Source: Tubiluchus corallicola (lineage: Eukaryota > Priapulida > Priapulimorpha > Priapulimorphida > Tubiluchidae). From it: 64,000 nucleotides of DNA. The stretch covers positions 2,636,001-2,700,000 of the forward strand of contig JAQGDQ010000002.1 in NCBI GenBank assembly GCA_030141605.1. Reading direction: 5' to 3'. Positions 4,614-41,152 of the stretch are shown piece by piece (position 1 is the stretch's first letter; each line of letters opens with the position of its first letter). Made by a program: the position numbers and the translations under genes. Below the pieces are notes generated by a model that had not been told where the DNA came from, did not search any database, and worked only from the letters and a program-made list of their open reading frames with translations.

Positions 4614-7600
4614 ATGAACAAGCTTCTGTTCTGCTCAACCGTGGGAGCCGCATTGGTGAGTTTTTTTTATTTCGATACCCAGCTAGGATTCAGCACCGGC
4701 CACATTGCCTACTTACTTTGATTGTGGCGGGACGCGAATCTAGGTGTTTATCAATGGTTGGCCTCTACAATGAGGCAATGAATGCGCAATAGTGTCTTAG
4801 TTAATTGGGAATACCTACATCACCTGAACAGGGCCTAGAATCAGTTTTCAAATCTCTTATCTATTTTCTAACTAAACTCGCAATTACTTGAAGTTACAGC
4901 TAAACAGACACAGTGACTATTGGGCTATATCCCTTACCCCAATTATTTTACCTGACGAAATGCTTTACTGTCTTTTTGCAACAGTAAAAAATGAAAAATG
5001 GAATGCAGCTTTCATAAAATCTTAGGAAGAAGTATTTCTTTGTATACTTAAAAAATGTGTGTTAATCAGTTATGAGCTACTATCCAATTATATTAAATTA
5101 TATGCTTCTCTTGTTATGTTGTAATTAACATATTTGCTGCAAACATGACCTATCCACCCTGTGATTTAATTTTTAATGAAGTTCATTTACTAAAAAATAA
5201 AATGGAAGAAACTGCCAAGATTTTTGCACTACGTCCACAATTTTGCCCAACTTCGCAACCAATGTAGATACTGAACCGAGTTCAGTCTTAGTACGGCTTC
5301 GTCTCACTAGTATGGTTTGAAAAAATCATAATTTCAAATTAAAATCGCCTGAAACCTAAGTTAAATGATTTTACTTTTTACATAATAAATTTATGAATCT
5401 AATATAAACTTACTTTTAGCATAAGCTTATGAAAAAATATATCAATGTTGACTTGAAAAGAGGCAAAAAATAAAAATAATAGTTCATAAACTGACTGTGA
5501 GATATTTATATATAAAACAAATGTGGCTTTTTTGTTTGCGTGAGATATTTCCGATACGTTGATTTACTAATGATGATTAATGTAATTATCTGACCGCCCA
5601 ATAGGCGAAATTTAACATTTATAGAGAAATTATATCTTTTCGTAGTTCGGAGTCAGTTAGCCAATTAACTCGTTTTTTGTAAGTAATCAGACTCCACTAA
5701 TTCGTGTCTTTGTAACTGGTCTGACTCCACTAATCCAGAAACCGTTGATTCGTCAGACTCACTAGCCCAAACTTGGTGGCTTCATTAATTCGAATTCTAA
5801 GTTGGCCAATCTGTCAGGCCCAGAAACCGTTAATAGCTAATCCAGACGTAGCTAATTTGCATCCTGTAAATATGGAAGTCACTGATATGACTTTGATATT
5901 TTTGCCTTTTTCGTCCCACTCGACTGAATTTCATTAATCCAGACTGTGACTGTGCCGACTCAGGATTTTATAATTTAAACATTAATAACGCTTTTTCATT
6001 GCAGATTGCTGTGGTGCTATGTCAAGGCTATGGACATGGCCGAGGCGGTTATGGCAGACACGGGGGTGGTTACGGTGATCATGGAGGTGGTTATGGCGGC
6101 GGTGGCGGTGGCTATGGTCATGATGTAGGTTATGGAGGTCATGGAGGCAATAGTGGTTCCTGGGGGAAATATGGCGTAAGTGCAACTGTTTACAATGTTT
6201 TGTATCACTATATATTGGTGTTCTTACACTCATTCCTTGAATGTGCTTCTGATGTCTGGGCTTTCTACAACGTTTATACTTTTTCGCATTGTGCCACTGG
6301 ATGACGCTACCATCTGTGAATTCGCGTAAAGCAAACGCTGTATGAACTTGTTTCGCTGTGCCAGAAGTTAGTTCGTTAATTTGCGTGCTGATTACAGTTT
6401 TCAAAAATACTCACATAAAGAGCGATTTTTCTCGTTTCACCTGAATATTTGTACCTATACAGCTTTTCAATCAAAAGTAATATCTGTCAGCCTGACTTTA
6501 GGCATATTCATCCGTTGATTAATCTCCTAAACTAATCAGTAGGCCTAATGAAAATTAAATTATGTCGAGCAGAGCATTTTAAACTATCGTATAAGCTTAG
6601 ATGGCGTTTTTATATGCCGAAGAAGTTTAATTAACGTCTTGTATAAAGCCAAGTCTCGGTCAGCTGAACTGCTATTATATTTTTCGCTGTATGAACTCCG
6701 ACAGAATGTCGCTATTTTTTAGTTTACTGTCACTAAAACTACTTTTTTGCTGATTTATTTTCTTTTTTCAAAATGTTTTATTATTTGTAAATCACCACAT
6801 AATCGTTAAACTTACCAATTTATCATATAGTTTATCATAGTTAATTGTTCATTTACCAGTTAATTATTAAATACGCAAAGCAGTTAACTTCACATAGGTG
6901 TATAATTGGTCAGTTAAATCGGCCTGTTAACAATACTGTACCATAAACTGCAAGATAGTAAAATAACATATTCGTAAGTTGACCTTATTTTTAACTTCCA
7001 ACTTCTGTTTTAACGTAAATAACAGCAGCCTCGCAAACTGCTTTGGAGCAGAACACAAATTACCAACTGCAGCGAAACAAAGCATGGCTTATTTTTCTTA
7101 AACGCGGGTGTTATTTTGGAATCGCATATCCCAAATTAGACAAATTTAAGCCATTATCTTATTATGTTTGTGAACTCGTAGGTTAAATGTGGTAGCTAAC
7201 AAAAACTAGGAAGTGCAAAGGAGCAAGTTACATAGACGGCTTACTTTTCCTAAACTACAGATCTACTTTGCAGATATTCTGAATAAGGCTAATTTAAATC
7301 ATTATCTAATTATGATTCTGTACCACCACAGTCAAGGTTAAAAGTACGTAACTATAACTATTGTTTCGGGAAGTATACAAGGCAACTTGTTCTACTAAAC
7401 TTTGTGTGAATAGGTGAATAGTTTTTGTGATATGTACGCGCGCATGACATTCACAAAACTTAAATTTGCTTCAAACAATTAAGGCCTGTTAAGTATATGC
7501 ATTATTTAATTAGACCATTAGTCCTGAAAAGTTGTACATTATACACGCACTATAAAATAGTAATAGCGAGCGCTCATTTACTTACCAAAACCAATCATTA

Positions 7601-9051
7601 TACTGATATTGAAGTACTTTGTTTCGTTCTAACTTTAACTTTAGAAAGAACTGTTCATTCTTACATCTAACATTTCGTGAGCCTGGAATATCTAATCCAG
7701 TAGTTGTTAAACTAACACTACCCGCTGTACACGGCCTATGAGAGGTGTTCATAAGGTCACCGAGACCATCAAGTATAGAACTGCCAAGTATAATAAAACT
7801 ACATATAATATATAATATAGTGACATATTTTACCGAATTACTTTGGAATCCTGGTTTTGCGGACTTGTCGAAAGCCTGTTACCTGGACGTACATAATCAT
7901 GTCTTACGGTCAAGGTCAATCGTTATTTTTATTCAGGCTTCCAAATGAAAATTGGAAACTGCATCTTTCACGATCACATTTTGCTATGAAATTATCGAAA
8001 AGTTAAACGAAGCTTTTTATTTTTCTGTCGAGCGAATGTACCTTGAACACGAAATGGCATTGCTTAGCAGACTGAAAAATCACGCAATAGAGTATAAGAA
8101 TCCAGCTTTGAATTAAGTTTTGCAAATCAGTTTACATTCTGCATGCAAATATGCGGTGGTTGCAGCTTTTTCTAAGGGCGCCTCCGTTTTTTCTCGGATG
8201 ATGTAGCATCATGATGATTGGCACAAGTACTGGAAGAAGGAAAATTATAACCGCTACGGCCAGAAGTACGACGGCGGCGGTAAAGGCAATGTAATACTAT
8301 ACGGCAAAGCCAGCAAGAACAAGGGGAAAGGAAACTTCTACTTCAGTAAGGGAAAAGGTAAGCGAAAGTGTTTTTTGAACATTTTAACGAATGATTTGTG
8401 TTTAAAGTTATATCAGTTGTATGACCTTTCTCGCAGACTACAATGGCGCAACGAATTAGATCTGTTTATTGTGGTATTAGTTACGCAGCTGTTAATTGAC
8501 ATGGTTTAAAGTAAAAAAAACAGACAAATTTTTGCTTATAAGAAAATATTCTTACAAGTTCTGTTTCTTGCCTTTTATTTTTCAAAGTTGTAACTTTTTT
8601 TCGCTCACGCACAGAAAAAACACCTTTGTATTTTAACGACACCTCATAACATGGCACCAGGCCTCCTAAAGGAATTTAAGCGACACTAAATTTTTTTGCG
8701 CGAAAATAATCCCCGATCTAGTTTGGAAACCTTACATTTTTACCTATAGTTCCCGATCTTGCGTCACTTCCACTATGTGAGCAATTTCTAAAGCATAACG
8801 AAACTGTTCCGTCTTAGACCACTGCGCCACCTCCGCATTACCTAGAGTATTTAATTAGTGCTAACAACACGCATTCTTTAGGTAAATATTTCTACGATAA
8901 CTACCACAAAGATAATGGAGGAAAGAAATACTATGAAGACAAAGGGTACAAATCCATGCATAAAGGAAGAGGGTATCATGATGGGAAGGGAAACAAGCAT
9001 GGCAAAGGACAATACGGAAACTATCACAAATATTACGCAATGGAGCACTAA
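4614..9051 (+). CDS. Secreted Gly-rich protein with Lys/Gly/Tyr (GGKG-DKGG) domain, locus A
   Basis: Four coding exons: 4614-4655, 6005-6175, 8207-8357 and 8882-9051. All junctions are GT-AG and phases agree (0, 0, 1), giving 177 residues. Exon 1 encodes MNKLLFCSTVGAAL and exon 2 opens with IAVVLCQGYG, so the signal peptide is split by the first intron and is probably cleaved before QGYG. Exon 2 then encodes about 50 residues of GGYG and GGGYG repeats with His. Exons 3 and 4 encode the cluster domain: GGGKGNVILYGK, FYFSKGKGKYFYDNYH, DNGGKKYYEDKG, ending in QYGNYHKYYAMEH. The protein is presumably extracellular, and its Tyr, Lys and Gly content recalls matrix or adhesive proteins, but I recognise no named family. 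The intron before exon 4 carries a degenerate tRNA-like SINE. A possible poly(A) signal lies far downstream at 9911. Confidence 0.85.
5640..5840 (+). repeat. Degenerate short direct repeats in intron 2 of locus A
   Basis: Variants of CAGACTCCACTAATTCG and of CAGAAACCGTTAAT or CAGAAACCGTTGAT recur several times within about 200 bases. The copies are too diverged to define a clean unit. Confidence 0.4.
8705..8840 (-). repeat. tRNA-derived SINE remnant
   Basis: On the minus strand the sequence begins GCGGAGGTGGCGCAGTGG, which carries a good Pol III A box (TGGCGCAGTGG) in a tRNA-like 5' end. It is followed by a much weaker B-box-like GATCGGGAACT and no tRNA fold. It lies in the last intron of locus A, antisense to the gene. 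Confidence 0.45.
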
Positions 9052-10409
9052 GTCTTGTGAACTTTCTGCCACTATCGTCAGAAGAGACGATAATAATTGT
9101 TTGAGTAGTCATATATCATTTATATAAAAAGTTTTACTTTCCCCGTGTTTAATATTTTTCAACCTTTTGGTTTACGAAAACCATTGCAGATGTAATTAAT
9201 TCGGCTAAAAAATTCGTACTCATATGACAAACGATTGGGATTGGGTTATTTATAATGGGGCCGTTTCATATTTGCAACTTGTTGTAATTACTGTGAAAAA
9301 CAAAATAATCAATTACGTACGTTTTAAAAGTTAGATTAACCTAATGCAGATAAAAAGAAGCTGGGTGAAACTTCACTGAAATTTTGGTGAAAAGTCTTAG
9401 AAAAGATGCCATGAGTTTGATGCAGACTGTTGTTGTCAAGATGATTAGTCATTGTTGTAAGGCGGAATTATTTTGTTGTTCAGTTAAAGTGTACGTGTTT
9501 TATCACACAATTTACATAAAGATGAATTTTTAACCGTAGATTGCATACTTCTCTGTTATTGTAAATTTCCGTTTGATAACAATTTACCATAATTTGTTAT
9601 ATATGTTCCTGTTAAACTTTATTTCGTCTAAAATACAAATTTTTGTTACAAAAAAATCATTTTGTTGCGTTTTTGACTAAGGTGTTACCAAAATAATAGT
9701 CTCAAAATTTCAGTAACTGAACGTTTAGGCAGTCATAACGAAATACTTACGTATGATGGTTTTATCATTTTACATTGTTACCGTGTTTATGTTTTCATCA
9801 TTTTTATCATCGATCATACTTTCTCTAATGATGATTCCTTTACGGCATTAACTAACGTAAGTATCTTTGCAATTTTATTTTTGTCTTTTACTTTTACTTT
9901 ATTTGTTTTAAATAAATGTTCAGTATGACGATTTAGTTTGAAGTAATTTCGTTGTAATCACTTATAGTCTCTAAACTGTTGCTTCAATTAATTAGTTTAA
10001 TAACATTTTTTAACTATAATATAGTAGTCCTGTATTGCATGATTAATCGTTCTTTTTACTCTTTTCACATGAATAATTTTGTTTGTTTCAACTTTTCTTA
10101 GACTTGACTAATTATCGCTAACCCCTCTAAACATTGAATCAAAAATAGAGGATTTTAATTAAATGCTTATTTAATAGTTATAATCAATATAGTCCTAACG
10201 AAAAATATCTTTGTTTGAGTTTCCAAAGGAGAAACTATTGTCATTGTTTGATTTTCTTTACCTAAGTAAGTTATAACTAAACTATAAGTTAAAATCTATA
10301 ATTGAAATTGTTGAAGTGCTTTGTATTTTAAGTGTAACACTTTTTGCGTTTCATTTTTATACGTAATAATTATCATGAAGAAAACCTCAGCTGATGTCTG
10401 TTTGTGCAG
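9052..10409. other. Interval between cassettes A and B
   Basis: This is AT-rich sequence with a possible AATAAA for locus A at 9911-9916. I searched it for a signal-peptide exon for cassette B. A hydrophobic frame near 9754 runs into a stop, and its nearby donor (about 9844) is in another frame that has no ATG. No convincing first exon is present. Confidence 0.5.
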
Positions 10410-11297
10410 AAATACTACAATCAACATTACTATGATCGAAAGGGAAAATACGATAAATACGAGGATAAAGCTGACTGGGGTGGAAAGGGAGATGTCTTCC
10501 TGAAAGGAAAAGAAAGCCATAACAAAGGGAAAGGCAAATTTTTCTTCAGCAAAGGCAAAGGTAAAGCCACAGCAAGACTGACATGAGTGTTAAATTTCTT
10601 GATTTTCTATGTTTCTTTAGATTGATAAGTTTTTTTTTCAAACGAAATACACTAAGATACTGCAAATTACAGCGATGTTTTCAGCTATTATATCACTTAA
10701 ATTTTACGATTTATTTTGGTTAATTTCCGTTCATTTCTTTGTGCAAGTTAGATATTAAGGATCGCCCAAAAATGAAAAAATACTTATTTCGGAGTATTTC
10801 AGCTTCTTCTGTGTGTTCACAGATTAGATTCATTAAGACAATATGGAGTTTTTTTTCTGAATAGAAGAGATAGAAATCAAATATAAAATTTGGTCAGTTA
10901 GTGTGAAAGCTGAGCAGAAAAAGATGAGAGAAAATGAGGGAGGAGAGAGAGAAAAAGAGAGAGGGAGAGAGAGCGACAGCGACAGCGAGAGCGATAGCGA
11001 GAGAGCAGAGAAAGGAGGAAGGGAGGGAAATGAAGAAAAGGAGCTATACAGCGTAACTTATTATAATATGTACATCAAATTGACTTTAATACCTAATGTG
11101 TTAATAACTGTTTCTGCAATATTACAGGAAAATATAACTATGACAATTACCATCAAGACAAGGGTGGGGAGAAGTATTACCTTGACAAGGGCTATCATAG
11201 CAAATATGGCGGCGATGGTTGGTTTCAAGGATCTGGAGAATGGCATAAAAAGGGCAATTACGGAGGCATGCACAAGTACTACAACCCACACGATTAG
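10410..11297 (+). CDS. Two-exon GGKG-DKGG domain cassette B (partial gene or alternative 3' end)
   Basis: Exons 10410-10560 (151 nt) and 11128-11297 (170 nt) join in phase 1 and encode 106 residues ending at TAG. They follow a clear acceptor (TTTGTGCAG) in phase 0. The order matches locus A: KYYNQHYYDRKGKY, WGGKGDVFLKGKESHN, KFFFSKGKGKYNYDNYHQ, DKGGEKYYLDKGYH, GSGEWHKKGNYGGMHKYY. Both exon lengths equal those of locus A exactly. No start codon or signal exon is visible upstream. The phase-0 donor of the Gly-rich exon ending at 6175 could feed this cassette, making a 177-residue isoform. Alternatively this is a tandem duplicate with an unseen first exon. An AATAAA at 11480-11485 supports its own transcript end. 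Confidence 0.8.
10925..11035 (+). repeat. Purine-rich (GA)n-like tract
   Basis: Imperfect GAGA repeats with GCGACA and GCGATA interruptions lie inside the intron of cassette B. The apparent charged, Glu-Arg-rich frame is repeat-derived. Confidence 0.85.
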
Positions 11298-11479
11298 AGA
11301 CGACAACATAATCACCCGATCTTCTAGACAGCGTGATCAGGAATTTTAACTGGTCTCTAATGTGCCACAATTTTATAACATCCCGTCTTTCCCATTTTCA
11401 ATTCACAACATTACACAACACCAACACCAACAGAGCGATTTCATTTGTTATAATTTTGGTGTAAAAATATCTTTGTTTT

Positions 11480-11485
11480 AATAAA
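11480..11485 (+). terminator. Poly(A) signal after cassette B
   Basis: AATAAA lies about 180 bases after the stop of cassette B, with T-rich sequence following. Confidence 0.5.
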
Positions 11486-12361
11486 TTTTATTATTCTGAC
11501 ATTTGTAGTTATGCGTTCTTGCCTTTTTGTCTTTAGTCTTTTTGCATCTTAACAAAAATAAGTCTATATTTGTTTAATACTATAAATACCATTTACGAAA
11601 TACTTTTTACAGTTGAATCCTTAGGAACAACATACCTCACCAGCTCTTTAAATTAACCATATCACTTTGAGGATCGTAATTAACGTTTACTATAGAAGTG
11701 CTTAAGTTGACTTGGCACTGAAGTGTTGTACTAAGAGCATGTTAATTACCTACAGCTGCCAGTAGCAAATCGCGTAAGCTAAGTTTTAGTTTTCAGCAAA
11801 TTTTAAAAGTTTTAGAAGGCAAACATTTTTTCTGTCAATGAACTCTTGAAATCATCACCAAAAAGGTGAATCACGACATCCGTTTGTGTGGCAACTCGTC
11901 TCAATGAACGAGATTTCCTCAAGGCAGTTTATTCACACTGAAGCAGGACGTCAGTTCGTTTGTCTTCTTTTAATTTGTTGCTGTATTTAGTATTTTTAAG
12001 CTTATTTTTGGAGTTGCCTCAACAATTGCTCTAAACACGCGTTTTCACGTGTAACAAAAACACAGAAGAAATGTCCTATAAAACTTTGAAGTTTCTATAG
12101 CATACCAAAAGGACACCAGCTTATAATGGTTCCTCTTTCTTATCAACTGATGCCACTACATTATAAATAATCTACAGTCAATGTTGTTTATCTACGAAAA
12201 AAGTTAGTGAACTGTTTGGAGCTAGTTTGCTTTCTTCGCTTGTATATAGAAATCCTCATTATCGCTTTAAGTGGAAATTGATAAAATACTGATGACGTTT
12301 TTTCTCTGAGTTATAGCCTTTATGTATAGCGTATTATGTAATTTGTGTATTTTTGCTCTAG
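11486..12361. other. Interval between cassettes B and C
   Basis: AT-rich with no convincing signal-peptide exon. The ATGs near 12126 and 12182 open short frames without donors. Confidence 0.5.
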
Positions 12362-13166
12362 CACTACGGCGGTTACCACCAGTATTACAAGAAGGGTTAT
12401 TATGATAAGTATGACCAGAAATATGATGCTGGTGGGAAGGGAAATGTTTACCTGCAAGGAAAAGAGAGCAAAAACAAGGGATACGGAAACTTCTACTTTA
12501 GCAAAGGAAAGGGTAAGGAAATGCGTCAAAAACATGCGCAAACGTCTAAAAAACATGACTAATTTGAACTTAATGGCAAACTACATAAAGAAGGAAAATG
12601 TTGAAAAGGTGCGACGTAAGTCATGTTTGACACAGACATTTCTGAATGTGTTTCTCCACTTAAGTGGGTGACTAACACTGATAGAGCATGCCGATCTGAA
12701 CATTAGACTGTGAATGTAATTAAAAACGCTCAAATGTTTAATTTGAAAAGCATTTACACTGTCCATATATGGCGCCTAGTTGACAGAAGCCGGCTCAAAC
12801 ACATATAAATCAGATTATCAATCTTTTGGTAAATTAAGAGACGCAACTATTGTTCAGTTTCTAACTAATCATCAACATCCTAAATATAGTCCGAAATTCA
12901 TGAGTTTTTTTAAATAATCCTAAGCGTTTATTAATTGTGTACAATTTAACATCCAGTTTCGGCTAACATGTGTACGATTTTCAGGTAAATATAATTACGA
13001 TAATCACCATGTGGACAAGGGTGGTCAGAAATATTACATTGACAACGGACACGGCTACAAGCATGCTGACAAGGGCTATTTCATGGGCGCCGGGGACTGG
13101 CATAAAAAGGGCAAATACGGTAATATGCACAAAGTCTACGGATTAAAAGAAGAGTATGAGAGATGA
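12362..13166 (+). CDS. Two-exon GGKG-DKGG domain cassette C (partial gene or alternative 3' end)
   Basis: Exons 12362-12512 (151 nt) and 12985-13166 (182 nt) join in phase 1 and encode 110 residues ending at TGA. The incoming acceptor (TTTTTGCTCTAG) is phase 0. Motifs in order are HYGGYHQYYKKGYYDKYDQK, AGGKGNVYLQGKESKN, NFYFSKGKGKYNYDNHH, DKGGQKYYIDNG, GAGDWHKKGKYGNMHKVYG, then a charged tail KEEYER. This is the third copy in line with A and B, with the same first-exon length and phases. The second exon is 12 nt longer, from an extended middle and tail. No start codon was found upstream, so the same choice applies as for B: an alternative end of locus A or a duplicated gene fragment. A poly(A) signal follows at 13523. 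Confidence 0.8.
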
Positions 13167-13522
13167 GGCCAAGTTAAACATTTTTAAAAGGATATGGCCT
13201 CTTTTTGAGATAATGGACTTTGATTTCTACATTACATATATATGTCACTACAAAGGCGCACAGGTTTATATATGATCCATGTTTTAATGCATTTTGTATT
13301 GGATAAAATCGATTGTAGGAAAATCTTAGTGATAATTCAGAGCTGTTATTAAAATTACATTTCTATTTGAATTAATCTTGTTTTATTTACCCCGCGTATT
13401 AATTAAAAAGCAATCGCAATATTTAAATACAATTTAATCACACCTTTTTTGTATTTTTTGTTCCTTAGCTTTTACCTTCATTACTAGAGCACAGAACTGT
13501 TCTCTTGTTTGATTGTTTTTAC

Positions 13523-13528
13523 AATAAA
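13523..13528 (+). terminator. Poly(A) signal after cassette C
   Basis: AATAAA lies about 360 bases downstream of the stop of cassette C. Confidence 0.4.
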
Positions 13529-15483: not shown

Positions 15484-16554
15484 TTAGTAATCTGTCATAG
15501 CAATAGCCGATATATGTGACATTCTTCCCAAACTTCCGGTTATGTTGCTTTCCTCGGATGAAAGCATTGACGAGTTACATGTCAACAGTCTCTTAAATGC
15601 TAAACGAAAGTCTTTATTCTTCCATGCGTATATGACGGGATTAATCAACGAATTGGCGAACGCCATAAAGTAAACCACACGACTGAGCTGCACATAGAAT
15701 GGTCGAAAATCAGTGGTAAGTACCACAAAATGGTACAGAGTCATAGGCATCCAACACGCCACAAATGCCCCTACAACGATGAACATGACTTTGACGCCCT
15801 TGGCGTTGCTCTTGAAAGTCTGATTCGAATGAGAATCAGGACAAATCTGTTTCAAGTGTCTATTAGCAACAGCAATGAGCTTGATATACATGACCATCAT
15901 GATGATGGCGATGCCAATGACGTTTCCACTGATGGCGATGATTACCACGCGATGAACAACAAACTCGTAGATACATAGCTGCGTCAAACCTCTGGGGTTG
16001 TTATAGTACTGGCAGCTGCTCACGATTAGTGAGTAGGTCCAGGTGCAGGCGATGACAATCAGCGTGGTGGCGTGGCTCACAATGCTCGGATAGTGGAGAG
16101 GGTAGATGATAGCAATGAATCTATCACACGTAAGCGACAAAAGTGTGGTCAGCGATTCCACAAAGAGAATATTTGCCACAAAGAACACGGACAAACACTT
16201 GACCTCTGATTGACCAATGTCTCCTTGCCTGACGAAAAAGGTTGTCTGGACAGCGGCAATGTAAGTTCCAGCAAGTACATCGGTTAGGGCCAAGTTAGCC
16301 ACATAGTAATTTGCAAAGGTTCTCAACCGTTTGTACTTAAGAACGGAAACTATCACCAAGCCATTTAAAACACAGATAAAGAATCCCATTAAATTGTACA
16401 CCGTCAGGTTGATTATGATGCCAAGTAATGAGGTATAATAATGAGTTTCGAAACGGGTAGCATTATTAAAATAAGATGTATTATTTCGGCAATTTACTAC
16501 AGTAGAACAATTTATGATAAAAACCTCGTATGTTGCTGGAGATTCGTCCTTCAT
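15484..16554 (-). CDS. Class A (rhodopsin-like) G-protein-coupled receptor, intronless
   Basis: A single ATG-initiated exon of 356 residues with all class A landmarks. The N-terminus has N-glycosylation sites near 15, 25 and 31. TM1 carries LNGLVIV, TM2 has LALTD (D92), and TM3 starts at C120 and ends in DRF (144-146) instead of DRY. TM4 has a Trp near 172, TM6 has CWMP (267-270) and TM7 has NSLINPVIY (NPVIY 305-309). TM5 lacks the usual Pro, and the tail after helix 8 is short with Ser-rich segments. Lack of the TM5 Pro plus the short loops suggest the adenosine/melanocortin-like (MECA) branch of invertebrate orphan receptors. That is inference, and the ligand is unknown. It is a plasma membrane receptor, probably Gi- or Gs-coupled. 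Its orientation opposes the neighbouring LRR gene. Confidence 0.93.
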   Translation of the reverse strand: MKDESPATYEVFIINCSTVVNCRNNTSYFNNATRFETHYYTSLLGIIINLTVYNLMGFFICVLNGLVIVSVLKYKRLRTFANYYVANLALTDVLAGTYIAAVQTTFFVRQGDIGQSEVKCLSVFFVANILFVESLTTLLSLTCDRFIAIIYPLHYPSIVSHATTLIVIACTWTYSLIVSSCQYYNNPRGLTQLCIYEFVVHRVVIIAISGNVIGIAIIMMVMYIKLIAVANRHLKQICPDSHSNQTFKSNAKGVKVMFIVVGAFVACWMPMTLYHFVVLTTDFRPFYVQLSRVVYFMAFANSLINPVIYAWKNKDFRLAFKRLLTCNSSMLSSEESNITGSLGRMSHISAIAMTDY

Positions 16555-18173
16555 GTCTAGAAGACGTTCTCGGTAGTGTTTTTGTTTTAAAATTTTTCTT
16601 AAGTCAAAAATATTACAGACTTTTAACTTTGTGGAAAATTATATGCACTAATTCGCCACAAGACGTAATAAGACAGTTATATACTGCTTGACAGACGTTC
16701 ATTCGAGCTGCTCGCAAAACTTCTACTTTTCACTTGAAGAGAAAAATTTTGAGCACGCTGTGAGATATTCGAGTCTTATACCGTGCGCATTGCTGCGCAG
16801 CCACTTCCTACATTAATTTTAGAAACATGTTTTTCTGAAAACGAGACGGTTTCTGCTGCTTAGTAAATGCTACAAATGGGGCAAATCCCCAAATCTATCT
16901 GTTGCTAATTGGGGATTGTTTGAACAAAAGACGTCTTCGAATTGAAAGCGTTGAGTGCTGAACACCTGTAAATTGGCTATTATCAAATGCAATTACATGA
17001 TATTGATAGTCCTGTACAGCTTTGAAATTCCATCACTTGTTAAAGACACAACAGTACAACTGGCACTTATTTGTTACAATAAAAAACCGTCACAACAGTT
17101 TTTTTAATTACAGTAACAACCAATTTAAACCAAACAAGATTTGGTTTTACATCTTCACATTTCCCAGCAATGTCGGCCATTCCTGTATATAAATCCAATG
17201 TGACTTTAATATTTTTTATTATAAATTATTTAATACTCTTCCACTGCATATCTCAATGGTCAAAACAATTTAAAGTTCTTCCTCATAGATTATCCAAATT
17301 TCAGGCTCAAAATTAATGATATTAAAATTAATAAATTAGCTAAAGTCATTATTGTGAGCGACATAACTTTGGAAATGTTGAACTCTGACTTTTACACATT
17401 TCCTGTCTTTCAAATTTGGTATTAAAATTCAATAAATTGTGGGTTTACTTCATCATTGACTTCGACATTGCCGCACGGTGCATACCATTGATACGATGTT
17501 TCTGCACCCCAGTACAAGTTTTATGATCCAATATCAGCAACTGTTGCCTCAGCACAAACTTAAGCAAGAGTTTAAACACAAACTTCTGTTGTTGCTATGA
17601 TCGTTGAACTTTGGCTTGGGCAGAGACGGTGCATAGATCCATGATTCTCTACATAAAATTTGACAAAAATTTTGATCTGATCAAATCATATGCAGCATAA
17701 AGAAATTGTGCAGCTTTTTTGTTGAACAGCTGTAGGGAGAGAAAGTGCAACACATGTTGTTTACTGTACTCGCTGAATGAATAGCTGGTGAACTTTTATT
17801 GAGAAGTGAAGGTGACCATATAGATCCACCACAGGTGACATACCTTACTAGTTTTGCTTACTTAGGAAATCTTGTAAACGATAAGTTGAAGGTAAGAGCG
17901 ATGACGGTAGTGAATCAGATGACTTTTCAAGTGTTAATCGGTGCGCACAATACTGTGTCGGCAAGGTGTTGGTAAATTTCATATTCTGCAAAATTCCGAA
18001 TATAAGCTTTTTGCATTATAACAGCATCAAAAAGTGTGGTGTGATGAGAGTTCTATGCATATTTATTCTGAGTGTTATCTGAGTATTATCTAGAACTACT
18101 TTATTACATCTAGTTGTTTTTCGCGTGGTACTCGGGCTACTAGGAAATACTTTTATAAGTGGAACACCAGAAA
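16555..18173. other. Intergenic between GPCR and LRR genes
   Basis: This is the shared upstream region of two divergently transcribed single-exon genes. No clear TATA box, CpG-rich patch or repeat was recognised. TTTATAAGT near 18152 is too close to the LRR start codon to be a usual TATA box. Confidence 0.5.
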
Positions 18174-19334
18174 ATGGCGCGGACAGTTGAGTTGTTTGTG
18201 GTGACAGTTGCTGGTTGTTTTTTAGTCGTTTCTTTACAAAGCACTGCTACGTGTCCTCGAGACTGCAGTTGTGTAGCTAATGGCGTTGAATGTCTAAACA
18301 AAGGCTTTAAGCAGGAAGAATTAGTGGACATTTTTGACGCGATATCAACTGTAACAATAGAGGCCGACATTGTTGGAAATTTTTTCTTTAACGTGACAGA
18401 GGTTCTTTTCTGGCAAAAAATGAGCAAATTGCATTATTTAAATCTTGGAAATAATTCTATAGAAAGAATGCATGCATTTGCATTCACATCCTTACCAGTC
18501 CTGCACAGCTTGTACATGGACAGCAACCAAATAAAAACAAGCCCAACAGGGCTATTTCGGCACTTAGAAAGTATTGAAGAGCTAAGCTTACAATATGCAT
18601 TTCACACTGGTCCAAATTTAACCAAGATATTCGACAATAAAGAACTTGCTAGTCTTAGAGACCTACGTCTGTCTGGTAATAAAATGCGGTTCCTGAATTA
18701 TCGCGACTCGGACATTCTTTGTCTTTTTCCAAAACTTCGTTACCTGGTCCTTACTCATAATCTTCTTCGAAGCCTAAATATGACACTTGTCTGCGCCAAG
18801 AAATCATATCTAAGAACATTGGATGTTTCTGTTAATAATATTACTACATTCAGCAATAGCGATATTGCGATTGTCAACAGTATGAAGCAACTCCTGGAGT
18901 TAAACATTTCGAAGAATCCTTTTCATTGCGGATGCGAAACAAAAACATTCCTAAAATGGATCGCGTCGAAGAAATCCTTTACAATAACAGATCGGGAAAA
19001 TTTAACTTGTGTAACTTCAAGTGGGCCACAATTTATGAATGTGCGTTTGATAGACATAGACCTTGACCACTTGGACACTATGTGCTTAGAGAATGATGGC
19101 TCACTCGGTGGCACGGCCACATCAGAAAGTCGAACTAGAACCAAGGTTGGCATTATTTTCGGGATTGTTCTCACAGTGTTTAGTGCAGCATGCATTATAA
19201 CCGTCTACAAATTTAGACAGCCACTTGCAAAGAAGGCACACAAAGCCTTAGTTTCAGCAAGAAATAAGAACAAACATCATTACGAATTTATAGAATCAGA
19301 ATTTGAAGAAGATGCCATTATCTTTGAAGTGTGA
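18174..19334 (+). CDS. Leucine-rich-repeat single-pass membrane protein, intronless
   Basis: One exon encoding 386 residues from the ATG at 18174. There is a signal peptide (about 1-26), then a Cys cluster at 27, 31, 33 and 40 typical of an LRR N-terminal cap. About six LRRs follow (for example LHYLNLGNNSIERM near 86-99 and LRDLRLSGNKM near 161-171). An LRR C-terminal cap starts at NPFHCGCETKTFLKW (249-262) with further Cys at 279 and 304. The transmembrane helix is about 325-345 and a short cytoplasmic tail is basic, then acidic. The C-terminus IIFEV fits a class II PDZ ligand. Several Asn-X-Ser/Thr sites lie in the ectodomain. Such proteins usually act as cell-surface adhesion or recognition molecules; no specific orthologue can be named. 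A poly(A) signal lies at 19641. Confidence 0.93.
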   Translation: MARTVELFVVTVAGCFLVVSLQSTATCPRDCSCVANGVECLNKGFKQEELVDIFDAISTVTIEADIVGNFFFNVTEVLFWQKMSKLHYLNLGNNSIERMHAFAFTSLPVLHSLYMDSNQIKTSPTGLFRHLESIEELSLQYAFHTGPNLTKIFDNKELASLRDLRLSGNKMRFLNYRDSDILCLFPKLRYLVLTHNLLRSLNMTLVCAKKSYLRTLDVSVNNITTFSNSDIAIVNSMKQLLELNISKNPFHCGCETKTFLKWIASKKSFTITDRENLTCVTSSGPQFMNVRLIDIDLDHLDTMCLENDGSLGGTATSESRTRTKVGIIFGIVLTVFSAACIITVYKFRQPLAKKAHKALVSARNKNKHHYEFIESEFEEDAIIFEV

Positions 19335-19646: not shown

Positions 19647-20459
19647 GGGGCAAAATTCGAAAATAATATTTTAATATTGGTAATAAGACTGTAATGATAC
19701 TGTGATTGTATAGTTTTGTATGCATCTGTTTCATTTATATATGTAGTTTTATTTAGTTTCTAAGTGTGTTAGTTTGAATGCGTAAGCCTATTAATAATGA
19801 CTCTATTGCTTTTATCAGTTTTTATTAACGGGTTGCACATAGAAATTTTGAGGTAAATATGTTTCTGATTTTATGTTTGCATTGTATGTAACATTTTTTA
19901 GCAAAAAAGATTACTACAAATAATAAAAATAATGTTCTTTATTATAAGGAATATGAAAGTGAAAACTTATCTTTGCAGTTTTCTTGGTTACAGCTAGCTT
20001 TTGCATTTTATTTTTCTTAAAGGTTCACTGACACCCTGGTAGACATTTGCTGTCAAAATTCACTATTGATTAGTCTGATGCAAAAAAGCTGCTTTACTTT
20101 TTTTTATAAATTCGCGCGTTTCGCTTTGGTCAGCATTGAAACACTTCAAATTTAGCGCCGCACAGACATCTCGCGAAAAAGGAAATATCGGGGAAGAAAG
20201 CGGAAGTGACGTCCCGTTAGGAACGACACTGCGCATATGTGACTCTGGCGGCATTTACATGTGAGCAAAATCGAGCGATACGCCGGTAATGAAGAGACTG
20301 GGGTACTCGCATTTTGGTATTTTAGTGTTAAGCTCAAATTATAGGATTGTCCACACTTACTTGAATGCACTGTATTTTACAGATGAGAAATATATTAATA
20401 ATGAAGTACAACGTGTAAAAGTTTTAGCGTGACATCACTGGTATTTTGCGCTGGACTGC

Positions 20460-26030: not shown

Positions 26031-26723
26031 TCCGCGATCTTCAGTTCAGCGAGTCTCCGACCAGTAGTTGGAGTCGAACTTGTTCATTGTAGAAGAATAA
26101 TATTTTATTTGTTTTTACAGCACCAAGTAAAATTTTATTGGTTTTTACAACAGCAAGCATTCGCACATGTAGGCGGGATTACAACGCACGAGTAGCATTG
26201 ATCATGTTTAACCAATCACTGTCATTATCAAATCCTTAATTAGGATATAAAAAATGACAGTTTTATTATTTATACGAAACTTTTTATTAACAAGAACAGA
26301 TGAAGAAAGAACAAATTTAAGAATCTGTATAGTACTAGTCAAGCCTATATTCTAATACGTCGGTCCTAAACAAAGACCACAAAAGATATCGTAATATCTC
26401 GCAAAGAGCTGTGTATACTTACAGTATAATAAATGTTTAGTGAATTGCCAGTACTTAAAAACACAATTTTTTACACTTATTGGATAAATTGACATAAAGG
26501 ACATTAGTGAATAAATGAAAACCAAGAAGTAACTATAATCCTAGCAAAAAATTTTACTTCGCAAATGTATGTCTTTAGTTTCACAATAGATTGCATTTCC
26601 AGAAAACAAATTTGAGTCTCGCTGCAAACCGAAAGGCTTGTAACATGATATTTTTGTCATTTACTAAAAAAATAAATAAGAAAATCACTAAAACACAAAC
26701 GTAAATAAATAAATTAATTAATT

Positions 26724-26784
26724 AGCTATGGGATCTGCTTCATATTGTGCATCTTCATGATGTTGTCCATAATGATCATCACGT
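26724..26784 (-). pseudogene. 61-bp copy of a gene D coding segment
   Basis: This segment matches 28064-28124 of gene D in 58 of 61 bases. Read in the gene D frame, all three differences are at third codon positions and only one changes the residue (Glu to Asp in QHHEEAQYEADPIA). It lies 308 bases beyond the gene D stop and is flanked on both sides by AATTAATTAATTA-type sequence. There is no larger open frame around it. Confidence 0.85.
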
Positions 26785-27091: not shown

Positions 27092-30000
27092 CTATGGCCT
27101 TGACGAGCGCCGAAACATAGCATAGGGTTTGTATGAGACTGGTCGCGCTGCACGCTCCATTTGCGACAGAGGTAACCGAGGAGGAATTTCTCTTCTCAAT
27201 TCACGAGCATCTGGGTTCCTGTAATATGGCATTCTTTCATCTTCGTCGTACCTTTTCCTTTGCGAACCATATTTTTCCTGCAAGTATCTGGAAACGTACG
27301 CATGTGGATTATACTGCTGTTTACTAACTGGTGACCTGGTAGGTTCATGTGGCTGTGGAACGGAGTCGTACGTTGACGGTGATGGTTCGGTAACTGGCCA
27401 GTGACGGCCCAAGTACTTCGGAGCTATATCGACGTACTTGTGTGAGCGTCTTGGTGGCTTGGCGAAGTCATAGCCGCGCTGGTAAGCCATACTTGGGCTG
27501 CGGGTTTGGTCGGACCGCCCCCTCCTCTCTATGTAGCCTCTGACGGGGGGTTCCCGATGCTTTAGTTCAGAATAGCCTTCTCTGTATCTGTGGCTGGTAC
27601 TAGATGGTGACCTGTACTTTTCATGTGGCTTTCGAAAATCTCTTTTTGGCATCTCATAGAGCTCATATAATTTCGATTGTGGCCGGTATTCCCTACGTGA
27701 CGGTACGACTTTGAAATCTCTTTCTTTGTCATCACGTTCCTCTTCTTTCGCATACATTTTTTCTGATGCAAAGTTGGACTTCGCTGAATTGTCGGTATCT
27801 AAGTCAGCGTCTTTTGCAGCGTCCTCTGTTTTGCTGCTGACCAAAGCTCTTGCTGGATACACATTGTACGGGGATTTGTAGCCTAGATTGTAACTATCTC
27901 GTGGATGAATTCTTTCATAACCTGGATCACCATAGCTGGGTTTATACTTACCATATGAAGCATGAGGAGCACTATAGCCATCGTTGCTTTCATAGCCCTT
28001 ATCATGATTGTTCTCATAAAGAGCATCGATATTTGGCAGCTCGAATCCGTGCTTTTTCAAACTAGCTATGGGATCTGCTTCATATTGTGCCTCTTCGTGA
28101 TGCTGTCCATAATGATCATCACGTTTGTAGTCACCTTTGCCATCAAAATATCCCTTGTCATCGTGTTTCCTTTTTCCGCCATTATCTACATAAATCTGAT
28201 TTCCTCCCTTATCTAAGTAGAAGTTCTTATAAAAATACTTTCCTTCGCCTTTCGAGTACCTAAAGGTTCCGTGACCCAGGCTGTGGACTATCTTCCCGTT
28301 GTCCTGCAACGATTTAATTTAAAAAACATTAACGTTAATAGAGCTATCATATACATGAGTATCGTACACCATTTAGTTTGAAATCTAAACCTTGCAGCCC
28401 GGACGTACCCAACTACAACAAGGCCATTCAGCTAATACTGTTTAGTTTCTCAGTTAACGTACAGTTGCAACAGATATTGCTTTTAAAGGATTTCAGTAGA
28501 TTTTTACTTTTTGATAGGCGCTTATATGCAGGTAATTTAGCCTCTGAGTGTTCCCCCACATCATTTATTTGATGATTTTTTGTGTAAACATTTGTTTTCA
28601 TTATTGTCAATGTGTGATGTGTAATAAAATAAAATAAAACATACAATTTTTGGATTCAAAGTTTTAGCTTAACCAGTCTTATTACTGAAAAACTGTAGAC
28701 CCAATCTTGTACGAACATATAAAATATCATCTAAAAATATTTAAAAAGAAAACTGTTTTTGGGAGCTGCGTGAATATTTATATAACAAAAAATGAATGAT
28801 TGGCAATCTCAGCGACTGCAAAATCCTTTTCGGTGTTTGTGCTACCCTAACTGCACACTACATTGTCCTTTACTATTATTTTACCATAGCATTGTAAATC
28901 GACGTCATTCTTCACAAACAATTTAATACCCAACTTTTTCAATACTTTTCATTATTTCATCATTATCATACTACTCATCACCACCACCACCACCACCACC
29001 ACCACCACCACCACCACCACCACCACCACAATCATCATCATCATTTAACAGCCCAATAAAATTAGGACTGCCAATAAATGACCCAACTGAACTGACAAAT
29101 GCAATGTTATAAGAAAAACGCTGTTATCGTTTTTCTCCGCCTGGTTGCTCTGGGGCTGGCAGCTATTCGTAAGCTGAAAGTCGCGGGATTCACTAAATCA
29201 TGTGATTCTCAAAAGTATTTAACTAATTTGTTAGTACATAAATGCTTTGAACATGAACTGGTATAACTACCTAACTGGAAAAAACCTTAAAAAGGGAAAG
29301 GCATAAATTGGGCAACTTAAAGAAGCAAGAAAAATTTAACTAATCTAACAAAGAAATCATTGAGCCCGAGTACGTTTAATTTGTGTCAGTAGCCGCCCTT
29401 TATGAGTTAACTTGGTTTCAACACCTTTGAAAATTGCTCAAGTTGGTTAAAATAGAATTGGTCAAAGAAAAATACAGTAGCATATTGTTCAGATGGTAAT
29501 TCCTTTCTTTACAATTTATTCGCTTTATTCAAGCTAATGCTGCTTTTCCGCATCTAATGGTACGAGATTACGAGCGAAAATTGAAAACAGGACTAAACTG
29601 CTTTAAGTCAACAACATTCTTCGTAGTCCTTAAATAGTTAGAAAATTATGCACTTCTTGAAACTCTAGAGGCCATCTAATGCCAGGGTTGCCATCGTATC
29701 CTAGTCTCTTTTTAACCACAAGAGATTTTTAGTCGAAAGTAAACTACTTTACAGTTTTTAATTTGAATTTCTAGTAAATATATCCACCCATACCTTGACG
29801 TGTCCTTTCCCTCCATTGTCAATTTCTGCTCCTTTCTCGTCATATTTGTGTTTAGTATCGTAGTATCCCTTCTCATCTTTGTGTGCTTCTTCTCCCCAAT
29901 CCTTGGCTTCATGATCACCTTCCGCTACACAGCTTGCAAACAAGGACAACTGCAAAACAACTGACGTGTGAAATGTCTGTCAACTGCAGTTCTCTAAGCG

Positions 30001-36480: not shown

Positions 36481-37000
36481 CAGTACTAATGAAAATGATG
36501 ACCCGGCAACGATGGCAAAACAACATTGACTATGATATGACGGTGGCGACATTAAGACGACAACAGTTACGTCTTCGATGGCGGTAATCATGCCAATGAT
36601 AAGATAAAAAACCAAAAAATAGAGTAGTAATGATGTGAAGAAAAGTGCACTTCGCAACAGATTACTTCGTAATCACCTCCACTTATCGCATAGCTTTCTC
36701 ATTCTTTTCGATGAACTAAAAATCTTAAATTTGTTTTGGCACATGACGTACGCGTAATTACTAATTAATTGTGCCTATTGTCAGATCAGTGTCCAGCAAT
36801 TTCGCTACAATGCCTGACCTTGTGACCCGAAAACGAAAAACGTTTTACCAGTACTCGCCATATGTGGTTCACTGTGGAATTGCTAAAACAATAATAAAAG
36901 GTCAAGATAGAGTTTTATTCATATATAGTTTCAGCCATTACGGATCAGGGGATTCAGTATAGGAAGTTGATCAGGTGCGGTAATTACCGGTAGATCGTTG

Positions 37001-37007
37001 TATAAAG
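37001..37007 (+). promoter_or_regulatory. TATA box of gene E
   Basis: TATAAAG lies about 30 bases upstream of an inferred non-coding exon ending at ACAG|GTGAGC (37114). It is the same box word as for locus A. Confidence 0.5.
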
Positions 37008-37030
37008 CTGCAGGACAAATGACCACTGTG

Positions 37031-37114
37031 TTGTAGATGAGATAGCGATCGCAGTTTCTTGGTGCAGTGATTTCTTTCAGAGGTGGCGGGGGCATTTACA
37101 CTGGTCTGATACAG
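37031..37114 (+). other. Putative non-coding exon 1 of gene E
   Basis: It runs from the expected start after the TATA box to a strong donor at 37115. The next acceptor (TTTTTCACAG, ending 38043) opens a 19-base leader before the gene E ATG. The 5' end is estimated. Confidence 0.45.
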
Positions 37115-37561
37115 GTGAGCTATTTTGGAAAATTTACGGGCTTAGTGTTGCATTATATTCTGTTTTTTACGTTACTGGAAAGGGCTTAGAATGATGATGT
37201 TATCTATAAATTTCATTACTTTTCTTTACTTTTCTGTTTTCTTCGTCTGTAAACAGAAAAATAGAAAAACAGTATTTTAAGAATTGAAATCTAATTTTGT
37301 TAAATTGTTTATTAACTGCTTTTCCATTCCGGTTTAGTTGGAGGCTTATAATTTTTATCACTTGTGAATTAGGAAAAACATTAATAGAAATTTTCAAGGA
37401 GAATTATTTTCGGTTAACACGACTGGCAGTAAGAGTATGTAACACTTGGGTTTCTATATAATTGTATTCTCTTGTTTGCCTTTGCCTCTCAATCTACCCC
37501 TGATACTATTACACATATATGTAATATACACATGTCAATATATTTACATACATACATATTT

Positions 37562-37588
37562 GCACATACACACACACGCACGCACGCA

Positions 37589-37682
<94 letters not shown>
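37562..37682 (+). repeat. (CA)n then (TA)n microsatellite
   Basis: A pure CA run of about 80 bases is preceded by CGCA variants and followed by a TA run, inside the first intron of gene E. Confidence 0.97.
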
Positions 37683-38062
37683 AAGCAATTCATTTCAATG
37701 CTGAATTTCATTTTCATTTTGTACCTCCTGTTTCACTTTTCTGTTAATAATTAGTGTTCAGATCTGTACGAAATTTACTGCAAAACGTCTTTCATGCAAA
37801 CTGTCAGTAAAATATTTTTGAACATTTTATGTTTCAAAGAGCTGCAAAATATGGGTTAATAAAAATTTCAAACCAAAAAAATAAAGGAATGTAAAAGCAC
37901 TTTTTTGTCGCAAATTAATCTCGAAAATATTACGTAGATGGCTAGTTCTTGTTTCTTGTTTCACTGTTCACTTTCATCGCGTTTAATACTTATTGCTTTA
38001 ACTACATAACCGTTTTTATGTAAATATTGATTGTTTTTCACAGGCGGAATAAACGTTTCCCC

Positions 38063-41000
38063 ATGAATTTAACATCAGCCACGCAGCTGCTTTTCTATCT
38101 TTGTTTATGGGTGAGTCAGCATTAAAAGTCAAGAAAATTAAATTTTGTGCCTAGGTGCCAAAACATTCTCCTCTTACTCTTAATTATTACGTTTTTTTTA
38201 CAAGTAGTTAAATGTGCTTTAGAGAAAACTGAACTAAGAGTATTAAAGAAAAGAATGGTGTTACTTTAAATTCAACAGTGACTGTAATTGCAGACGGATT
38301 TGGCTCATCAGAAAATATGCAAATTACCATTAATATAAAATCCGCATATTATATCTACTCAGTTTAAAGCATAATAACGGAAAAAACTGCAACTTGTCAA
38401 AATGAGAAAAGCAGCTACAACAACTTCTTTTCATGTGAAATTATGGCTCAAGACTGAGATCAAAACCGTGATAACTTTCGTTTCTCTGTGGATGCTAGAA
38501 ATAAATGTATAATACCTTTTTCAAATTGAAAAGATCCTGTGAACCAGTATGTAAAGACGACATCTATCATCTAACTGTTTACTATTGCAGGTGGCAAATG
38601 GAGAGAAAAACGAGCCACCGGGACCAACTAGTTCCATCAATTGGGGCAAATACTTCACAGACAATAACAAACACCAATATGATCATAAATTAAAATATGA
38701 CAATGAGGGTTTTATTGACGATAAAGGCGGAAAAGGAGACATTGCCCTAAAAGGGAAAATCTCATACAACATGGGTGACGGTGAATTCGAGTTTAGTAAG
38801 GGCGAAGGAAAATATGCCTACGATAACACGCACATAGATAAAGGGGGGTCGCAAAAGTATGAAGACAAAGGTTCAGCCAGTAAGCATCACGACAAGGGCA
38901 TTTTTGATGGCAAAGGAGAGTACCACAATAAGGACCACTACAAGAACAATCATGCGCTGTATGAAGGAAATGCCCCTCGTCCCAAGCCTGCTTATATGAG
39001 CGATTATGATGCCAGTTATGACAAAGGTCACAGCGACAGAGGGTATGGTGATGTTGGCTATGGTAAAGGCAGTGGCGGCTACCCTCATGATGACTATGGA
39101 TACGATGCAGGATATGGAGAGAAAAAGGAGTACGGGCCATATCCAGGACCACCCAAACCATCAAGTTACGAGAAAGAACCATATGGCAGAAGTAGTTATG
39201 ATGATGAACATGGTGTTTCGTATGGTGATTTGCATGGACGCGGTTATGGAGACCCTCATGGAAGTAGTTACGGAGACCCTCATGGAAGTAGTTACGGAGA
39301 CCTTCATGGAAGTGGTTATGGTGATCTTCATGGTAAAGAGATTGGCTATGGTGATCCACATGGAGGAGGTGATGATGATCCTCATAAGAGTGGATATGGT
39401 GAACCACATGGACGTGGTTATGGCGATCCTCACAAAAGCAGTTATGGAAATCCACATGGAAGTGGTTACAATGATCCTCACGAAAGCAGTTATGGCGATC
39501 CACATGGAAGGGGTTATGACGAGCCTCACAGAAATGGATATAGTGATCCTCATAAAAGTAGTTATGGAAGTATACATGGTCCACATGATCCACATGGAAG
39601 TGGGTATGGAGATTCCAACGGCAAGCAAAACAGTTACGCTTATCTTCGCGAAGGTGGATACTCTGACCCACATAGTAAAGAAAGTGGTTATAATGATCCC
39701 TATGGACGTGGATATAATATTCATGGTAAAGAAAGTTACAGTGATCCCCATGGAGGTGGCTACAATGATCCACACAACAAAGAAAAAGGATATTATGATC
39801 CTCATTCAGCAGGATACGGTGATCCACATAGAGAGGGATATGGAGACACGCATGGTAAGCCTAATTACGGTGATCCTCATGGTAGTGGATATAGTGACCC
39901 TTATGGCAAAAACAGTGGTTATGGTAGTTCCCATAGTGAACCTTATGGAACTAGTAGTGGATACAACAAGCCCAAAACATACGATCCATATGCATTGCAA
40001 GGAAGAGTTTTGAGCAGTGACACAGGCAACACTCACAGTGAACCAAGTTCTGCTTCTGATTTATCCAGTACTGATAGTCCGCTTGTATTTACGTACAATA
40101 GAGCTCCTGCTGTATATGTAACATCTGGCAATAATGGGTATCCGCAATCAAACAATCCCTATCGCGGTTACAGCAGTAGTTTTGTGCCTCAAGACGAAAC
40201 ATCAATGTATAAATCAAGTGCAAGTTCTGCTCCAAAAGACGAATTCGACTTTGACGTCGTAATTCCTGGGGAGTATGAGAAAAATTACATTCCGGCAAGT
40301 TCATCAAGCCGTACCTATGGCAATCAAAACCACGCGGACACCAGAGCTGCTGGTAGAATGTACTACAGTGGTCGCAACTATCCGCTTGCTGCCCATGTTC
40401 AGGGACAATCGCAGAATAGTCCTGCTCAACAGTTTAGTAATGTGCAACTACCCACAAGTAAAACAAATCGCGATGACTATGTTTACAGCAATAAAAATTA
40501 TGACAATGCAAAAGTTTCATTTGAAGATGACGATTTTTTCAAGGACAAGGAAATTACAAGTTTCAAAAATGGTAACCAAAATAAACCTTCAGCTGCTACT
40601 GATAATGCTGCTGTTGCCTACAAAAACTCAGAAACTTATGCTAACAGTAATGATAACATTAAAAATGTTAATACAAACTTCGACAATGGCAGTAGTCCTA
40701 CAAAAGCCAGATTCAATCCGTATGGTCAAAAGCAAACTGCAGCTGTGCAGCAAAGTCGCTTTTCTCAAAATGATGACTGGTTTAAGGAAATCGATGCTAT
40801 CTACAATATCCCAGGCAACACTTATCGAGAAACTGTAAACAACAATAACAACAACAACAACAACAACAATTTAAGCAAAACTTATACCAGAGGAGCAGCT
40901 CAATCAAATGCAAAGGTTAACAATCCTGCGGGGTTCGTTAATATCCAGAGCAGTTCAAGTCCGACCAAAAACACTCCTGGAAGCTACAGCGACTGGTTAA

Positions 41001-41152
41001 CATCCCATGGGGCTCCTCGGAAAAACACATATGGCAATAGAGGTTATCATGGTGCTATTATCGGTTCGAATGGCAACCGTGGTATGCCAACAACAAGTCA
41101 GCCTGATGTTACAGACCCAACCAGCTCAACCCTAATACAATGGAACATTTGA
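38063..41152 (+). CDS. Secreted GGKG-DKGG domain protein with GYGDPHG repeat tail, gene E
   Basis: Two coding exons, 38063-38110 and 38591-41152, joined in phase 0, give 869 residues. Exon 1 encodes MNLTSATQLLFYLCLW and exon 2 continues VANGEKNEPP, so cleavage near VANG is likely. The domain spans about residues 35-125: KGGKGDIALKGKISYN, FEFSKGEGKYAYDNTH, DKGGSQKYEDKG, GIFDGKGEYHNKDHY. It has no intron inside, unlike A-D. About 280 residues of GYGDPHGSS-type repeats follow, roughly 25-30 units with DLHG, DPHK and EPHG variants. The last ~330 residues are Ser-, Asn- and Gln-rich with a poly-Asn run and a Tyr-containing end. Likely a large extracellular, intrinsically disordered protein; the Gly, His, Tyr and Asp repeats would suit metal binding or cross-linking, which is inference. 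Poly(A) signal at 41854. Confidence 0.93.
39230..39960 (+). repeat. In-frame GYGDPHG-type coding repeats of gene E
   Basis: The 27-nt-like unit GGAGACCCTCATGGAAGTAG and relatives repeat in frame. Adjacent units near 39245-39300 are almost identical, which indicates recent slippage, while distal ones are diverged. Confidence 0.9.

Follow-up and report, generated by a model that had tools for sequence, protein, structure and literature searches.

A domain family within and beyond the window

The window (the whole 64,000-nucleotide stretch of DNA that was analysed) contained five copies, A to E, of one domain of about 105 residues. Their splice sites were intact and their frames open, and all were where a sequence-only reading had located them, from the ATG of A at 4614 to the end of E at 41152. 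The genes and features were as follows.

4614..4655, + strand: predicted first exon of gene A, MNKLLFCSTVGAAL; opens the signal peptide, phase 0, donor GTGAGT
6005..6175, + strand: gene A exon 2; closing part of the signal peptide, then a module rich in Gly/Tyr/His and the WGKY linker; phase 0, with GTAAGT as donor
8207..8357, + strand: copy A domain exon a, 151 nt
8882..9051, + strand: copy A domain exon b and stop; the nearest poly(A) signal follows after 860 nt, at 9911
10410..10560, + strand: copy B domain exon a, 151 nt; own upstream exon not found
11128..11297, + strand: copy B domain exon b and stop; AATAAA at 11480
12362..12512, + strand: copy C domain exon a, 151 nt; own upstream exon not found
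12985..13166, + strand: copy C domain exon b and stop; ATTAAA at 13348, AATAAA at 13523
15484-16638: GPCR, between A-C and D/E
18159-19334: LRR gene, between A-C and D/E
27092..28303, - strand: copy D exon 3; remainder of the domain, Tyr/Arg/Pro-rich tail, stop at 27092-27094
29794..29949, - strand: exon 2 of copy D; latter half of the signal peptide (LSLFASCVA), then the DWGEE linker and the beginning of the domain
38063..38110, + strand: predicted first exon of copy E, MNLTSATQLLFYLCLW; phase 0, with GTGAGT as donor
38591..41152, + strand: exon 2 of copy E; carries the WGKY linker, the entire domain, 24 units of the SYGDPHG type, a long tail of Ser/Asn/Tyr and the stop

Copies A to C lay in tandem inside 8.6 kb, and D and E were found 14-25 kb from them on opposite strands, past the GPCR and the LRR gene. 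Four further copies (F, G, H and I) were present elsewhere in the 343.5-Mb genome, giving a total of nine. The earlier description of the family as clustered was thus borne out in part, for A to C. The flanking modules varied by copy and agreed with the side features first described: Gly/Tyr/His-rich in the Gly-rich exon of A (Gly-rich, His-bearing modules also occurred in F and G), a Tyr/Arg/Pro-rich tail in D (Tyr 10.3%, Arg 11.5%, Pro 10.6%), and SYGDPHG-type repeats in E, whose 24 units were counted with a loose pattern.

The residues of A to E are biased in composition, and a first protein search, using a profile that included the Gly-rich module, scored none of 2,524 word-sharing candidates at E 0.01. 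Both observations would suit a likeness of low-complexity composition only, with the B and C cassettes as dead remnants, but this reading is contradicted by the following results and we consider it extremely improbable. Pairwise local scores were 221-382 against residue-shuffle means of 56-86 (z 15.9-27.6 in all 10 pairs of A to E), the GT-AG junctions were intact, the frames were free of stops, and selection was purifying at very high dS. In the motif set reported earlier, one correction applies: E reads GGKGDI instead of GGKG.V. Third-position changes (57-75) outnumbered second-position changes (18-34) in 10 of 10 pairs; dN was 0.30-0.61, while dS was past estimation in eight pairs and 2.6-3.0 in the remaining two. 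With dN in this range and dS saturated or above 2.5, copies A to E are old and under purifying selection.

The domain was rich in Lys, Gly, Tyr, Asp and His and nearly without Pro, with Gly turns alternating with aromatic residues. Cys was absent from all 10 domains, in which Gly made up 15-19%, Lys 12-21% and Tyr 6-18%; the pI was 9.0-9.7 in seven of them (E 6.4, I 6.1, D 8.0). The linker Trp lay exactly 12 residues ahead of the first invariant Tyr, by anchors placed by hand, in all seven sequences with a known upstream part (A, D, E, F, G, H and a Priapulus protein described below). Domain exon a was 151 nt long and ended in phase 1 in each of the six split copies (A, B, C, F, G, I), and the domain of E was uninterrupted by an intron. 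Two AlphaFold models gave pLDDT values of 36.7 and 37.4; as neither was confident, a beta reading of the domain rests on the residue pattern.

One signal and linker module, with probably three alternative terminal cassettes

Signal peptides were assessed by hydropathy combined with exon structure. A strict first-exon scan covering A to H (donor at least 6.5, hydrophobic, phase 0) gave signal-type candidates in five copies (A, E, F, G and H), and the build of A exon 1 (14-16 codons, phase 0, donor score 8) was repeated in the other four; for E, other candidates with weaker donors were seen further upstream. A first-exon call is not proof, because the same scan also gave candidates in 16 of 400 random 1,300-nt stretches. 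It returned no signal-type first exon for B, C or D. Copy D, whose first exon was not found with confidence, carries half of a candidate signal peptide in exon 2, and B and C would reach one only via exons 1-2 of A. Of A, D and E, which had been proposed to have their own signal peptides, A and E thus have candidates and D the second half of one.

Across A to C there is one recognisable signal and linker exon pair, located upstream of A. The linker exon pattern (Trp, four codons, donor) was absent from the 1,358 nt upstream of B and the 1,064 nt upstream of C; scanning the + strand of the window gave two matches only, A exon 2 and a site at 20246, and in 50 kb at the F/G cluster the minus strand yielded exactly the F and G exons. 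When exons 1-2 of A were joined to B or C, the junctions were in phase, the reading frames open and the Trp in register. The strict scans gave B and C neither a signal exon nor a linker exon, yet both are conserved and can be joined to A exon 2, and one gene with three cassettes is the preferred reading. It is thus improbable that A, B and C represent three genes, and the earlier count of five copies, taken as a count of genes, is probably too high. They would be alternative terminal (3') cassettes of a single gene (4614-13166), each cassette an exon pair with its own stop that would be spliced singly onto exons 1-2. The distance of 860 nt between the stop of A and its nearest poly(A) signal weighs against this explanation.

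Alternatively, A, B and C could be three separate tandem genes in which the first exons of B and C are short and were missed by the scans, all copies being independent small secreted proteins. The F and G copies, which lie on another contig with some 20 kb between them, are separate genes, each with its own exons 1-2; D likewise has no first exon in the strict scan, so that a missing one in B and C is not proof of absence; and a loose scan found one weak candidate for B (31 codons, donor 5.5). However, neither gap upstream of B and C held a strict-scan candidate, the loose scan found none at all for C, and the Trp-linker signature was missing from both gaps. We regard three genes as less likely than one.

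A direct-repeat search across 6170-13400 recovered two families of coding exons, plus two pairs that were short and weak, and showed no docking-type element. Tandem read-through, in which the A domain would be spliced onto the B domain, was rejected: each cassette stops, and from start to stop A exon b had no donor scoring at least 5 except at its very first base. Separately, donor-like sites scoring 5-5.5 were seen in exons b of B and C.

A single named relative in Priapulus

None of the nine copies had a credible match in Pfam (the best was DUF1561, a single member, at E 0.12) or any match in NCBIfam, and the PDB held no match to the domain. A domain-only profile of the nine copies matched one protein among 399 candidates (about 58-186 aa covered), the uncharacterised protein LOC106810609 of Priapulus caudatus (E 9.8e-21), for which Pfam likewise gave no credible match. 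A query of copy H plus the domain region had no match among the only four word-sharing candidates (about 164-523 aa, a thinly sampled range). As first supposed, no named family was found for the domain in these libraries; the suggestion that it is lineage-specific also fits, within protein searches that reached lengths up to about 520 aa. The domain, new as far as these libraries show, most likely serves as a component of a tough covering outside the cells.

LOC106810609 (145 aa) has a signal-like start, a QYGGY motif, the linker Trp at the same spacing and the full domain, and is without a long Gly-rich or tail module. Its identity was 40-53% to A-H (F 53%, A and B 50%) and 29% to I, and its best exon match in this genome was 57%, which makes P. 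caudatus a very improbable source of the genome. A COX1 search of the genome gave no match; of its 14 controls, the 8 that responded were bacteria and archaea. In the literature searched, neither LOC106810609 nor the phrase 'priapulid cuticle' was mentioned, and nothing joined Priapulus caudatus with cuticle, chitin and cuticular protein together, or with genome and taxonomically restricted. Among papers with priapulid, genome assembly and cuticle, none concerned priapulid cuticle proteins as judged by titles and the opening parts of abstracts.

Comparison with known structural proteins

Arthropod RR cuticle proteins (Chitin_bind_4, PF00379) are secreted, Cys-poor, Tyr/Gly-rich building blocks of cuticle, and the present family resembles them in being Cys-poor, Tyr/Gly-rich and, by prediction, secreted. 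In contrast, PF00379 matched none of the nine copies nor the Priapulus protein; it was also not found in the whole genome, in a search that ran without a working positive control. We know of no counterpart of the Lys/Gly/Tyr domain in mussel byssus. His-rich regions of byssus are described as coordinating metal ions (PMC10807375), and by analogy the His-bearing modules of A, F and G and the SYGDPHG repeats of E could bind metal ions. The E tail repeats passed the cut-off of the prion octapeptide repeat model PF03991 (42.8 bits vs 32). This match covered only the short His/Gly repeats, and it was the only one that Pfam reported for the long E exon at E 0.01, with no prion globular domain; we treat the likeness as convergent low complexity.

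A proposed role in an extracellular covering

The lack of Cys, the near absence of Pro and the alternation of aromatic residues with Gly turns suit a cross-linked cuticle or sclerite protein, and a matrix-protein reading fits both the composition and the predicted secretion. We propose, with a probability of roughly 0.55, that these are structural proteins of the extracellular space, secreted and built around a single new domain, that A to C are one gene with three cassettes, and that the proteins are cross-linked in a covering. They would enter an extracellular covering, which could be the cuticle, the scalids or teeth, or an egg envelope. There, strands of aromatic residues and Gly would pack, Tyr, Lys and His would be cross-linked oxidatively or via metal ions, and the flanking modules would adjust stiffness and water content.

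Small size, a basic pI in seven of the 10 domains and signal-type first exons would also be expected if the domain were a soluble secreted factor, for example an antimicrobial or venom-like basic peptide, and not a cuticle or matrix protein. We think this unlikely: Cys is missing throughout, three copies (E, I and D) have domains without a strongly basic pI, and the long low-complexity Gly/Tyr/His, Pro/Arg or His-repeat modules are like those of structural proteins.

Less likely still is a family of matrix proteins for shell or mineral in a calcifier resembling a mollusc, an idea prompted by composition and 5S features and dropped upon the Priapulus match. We know of no mineralised skeleton in Priapulus. 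A secreted-looking frame with an Asp run (42836-43306) would suit such a family, and so would the names of some limpet shell proteins, since the Lottia shell proteome includes proteins named Gly-, Lys- or Tyr-rich (PMC4094399). The sole named relative, however, comes from Priapulus, a member of Ecdysozoa, and the domain-only profile retrieved no shell protein over the lengths it covered; support for the earlier suggestion of a mineral-associated family was not found.

Molecular knowledge of animal coverings derives mostly from insects, nematodes and molluscs. An unnamed conserved domain common to this genome and to Priapulus offers a molecular handle on the coverings of a little-studied group, and its motif set (a Trp 12 residues before the first Tyr, a 151-nt exon and an SKGxGKYxYDN core) should aid in finding more members. 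We give about even odds that a priapulid-like lineage possesses a family of covering proteins of its own, built on a domain absent from the family libraries searched, in which one gene makes three versions from a single signal/linker module and three two-exon cassettes. If true, one promoter with three cassettes would supply covering proteins that differ in stiffness or charge.

Homology of the window copies

Motif scanning and tblastn within the window recovered all five copies (A-E) of the Cys-free, Lys/Gly/Tyr-rich, putatively secreted domain of about 105 residues at the places proposed by the sequence-only reading. Gene models were built for each with GT-AG introns.

Exons of the five window copies (window positions)
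Copy A: 4614-4655, 6005-6175, 8207-8357, 8882-9051 (+)
Copy B: 10410-10560, 11128-11297 (+)
Copy C: 12362-12512, 12985-13166 (+)
Copy D: 29949-29794, 28303-27092 (-)
Copy E: 38063-38110, 38591-41152 (+)

All ten pairs scored 16 to 28 SD over residue shuffles (300 shuffles per pair), and codon differences between pairs numbered 57-75 at third positions compared to 18-34 at second positions. Pairwise dN was 0.30-0.61, and dS was past estimation in 8/10 pairs and 2.6-3.0 in the remaining two. Judged from the shuffle scores, codon-position differences, dN and dS, the likeness of A-E is homology of old, constrained coding sequences and not common residue bias.

Downstream of D, a near-exact duplicate of about 60 bp of its coding exon (RDDHYGQHHE.AQYEADPIA) lies at 26723-26783 (-), flanked by TAATTAATTA tracts; it looks like a templated insertion.

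Family members across the genome and in databases

The 343.5 Mb assembly, in which the window is C1209:2636001-2700000, was searched with three queries. With copy E, 13 of the 16 candidates scored were exon matches at E up to 0.001. At E up to 1, the Priapulus caudatus protein described below matched 13 of 14 candidates and copy I, a divergent member, matched 8 of 9. Combined, these searches indicate nine copies (A-I), such genome counts being lower bounds.

Further copies from the genome search
Copy H: C1209 (the window's contig), 0.87 Mb
Copies F and G: contig C1776, about 20 kb apart
Copy I: contig C474

The view that no named family has this pattern was upheld, with no credible matches in Pfam, NCBIfam or PDB. 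A search of ~5.8 billion database proteins yielded 399 candidates, one of which is related: the uncharacterised P. caudatus LOC106810609 (145 aa), which shares at most 57% identity per exon with its matches in this genome and 29% with copy I. At that level of identity, P. caudatus is very unlikely to be the source of the genome, which this family alone places close to Priapulus. In the tree this protein clustered with A, B and C (support 81/95, under the tool's mark); no branch was strongly supported, the placement of E-H was not settled, and I was very divergent.

Domain and gene anatomy

In six copies (A, B, C, F, G, I) the domain is interrupted by a phase-1 intron following SKGxG or its equivalent, domain exon a being 151 nt in every case; this intron is absent from D, E and H. 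A Trp stands exactly 12 residues N-terminal of the first invariant Tyr in 7/7 copies with known upstream sequence, and in A, F and G this linker Trp is encoded on the second exon, directly ahead of the intron.

The non-domain parts differ as had been noted, with a Gly/Tyr/His-rich second exon in A, a Tyr/Arg/Pro tail in D and SYGDPHG repeats in E. The second exon is likewise Gly/Tyr/His-rich in F and G, and that of F is a single open exon of 1,464 nt compared to 171 nt in A (C1776, stretch L014+L015, 11038-12522 (-)). The tail of H carries DPHGGGG and GYGGG. A Tyr/Arg/Pro-rich frame, similar in style to the D tail, lies upstream of copy I (C474, stretch L021+L022, 11074-11574 (-)).

Signal-type first exons of 14-16 codons, phase 0 and with the top-scoring donor were predicted upstream of A, E, F, G and H. 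For these five copies the strict scan (hydrophobic, phase 0, donor score 6.5 or more) found a signal exon in 5/5 cases, A, E and F having a single candidate each, G having two and H two that overlap, and for B, C and D in 0/3; a candidate appeared in 16/400 random stretches, and weaker-donor alternatives exist besides the strict-scan candidates. Of the signal peptides earlier assigned to A, D and E, those of A and E have a predicted first exon, and for D the second half (LSLFASCVA) is seen on exon 2. The undetected first exon of D indicates that the strict scan can overlook one.

Arrangement of copies A, B and C

A, B and C each comprise a cassette, a pair of domain exons (a and b) ending in its own stop. 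No signal exon was found by the strict scan between the A stop and B or between the B stop and C, and an exon ending in Trp, four codons and a donor was absent from both the A-B and B-C intervals. The plus strand of the window holds this signature at two places only, A's exon and 20246; in 50 kb of minus strand at the C1776 cluster it marks exactly the exons of F and G. Since cassettes B and C are both intact and under selection, a 5' module of some kind presumably precedes them in the translated product. A exon 2 can be joined to B or C with phase and register both preserved, and the resulting frames stay open for 178 and 182 codons, counting the stop. Poly(A) signals lie close downstream of B (11480) and C (13348 and 13523), but the first one after the A stop is 860 nt distant. 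The lack of upstream exons for B and C and the fit of A exon 2 to both suggest that A, B and C are probably one gene.

Other features of the window

Four further features were observed.
42836-43306 (+): secreted-looking frame with Asp runs, without Pfam match
44966-45271: Cys-rich frame following the Asp-run frame, likewise without Pfam match
49000-51003 (+): retroelement fragments with an Integrase_H2C2 match
63690-63808 (-): lone sequence resembling 5S rRNA (84.3 bits), which may be a pseudogene or 5S-derived SINE

Likely role

Cys is absent from all ten domains and Pro nearly so, with Gly at 15-19%, Lys at 12-21% and Tyr at 6-18%, and aromatic residues alternate (every second position) in runs separated by Gly turns. 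AlphaFold did not yield a confident model of the domain, and a Chitin_bind_4 (RR cuticle) match was found nowhere in the whole genome, the same search also giving none in any control genome. Because of this composition and aromatic pattern, combined with signal-type starts and appended low-complexity modules, the predicted proteins fit a family of cross-linked extracellular structural proteins. His-rich regions of mussel byssus are reported to bind metal (PMC10807375), and by analogy the His-bearing modules here could do the same. As the sole named relative comes from a priapulid, the cuticle or introvert hard parts would be the first choice for the site of action.
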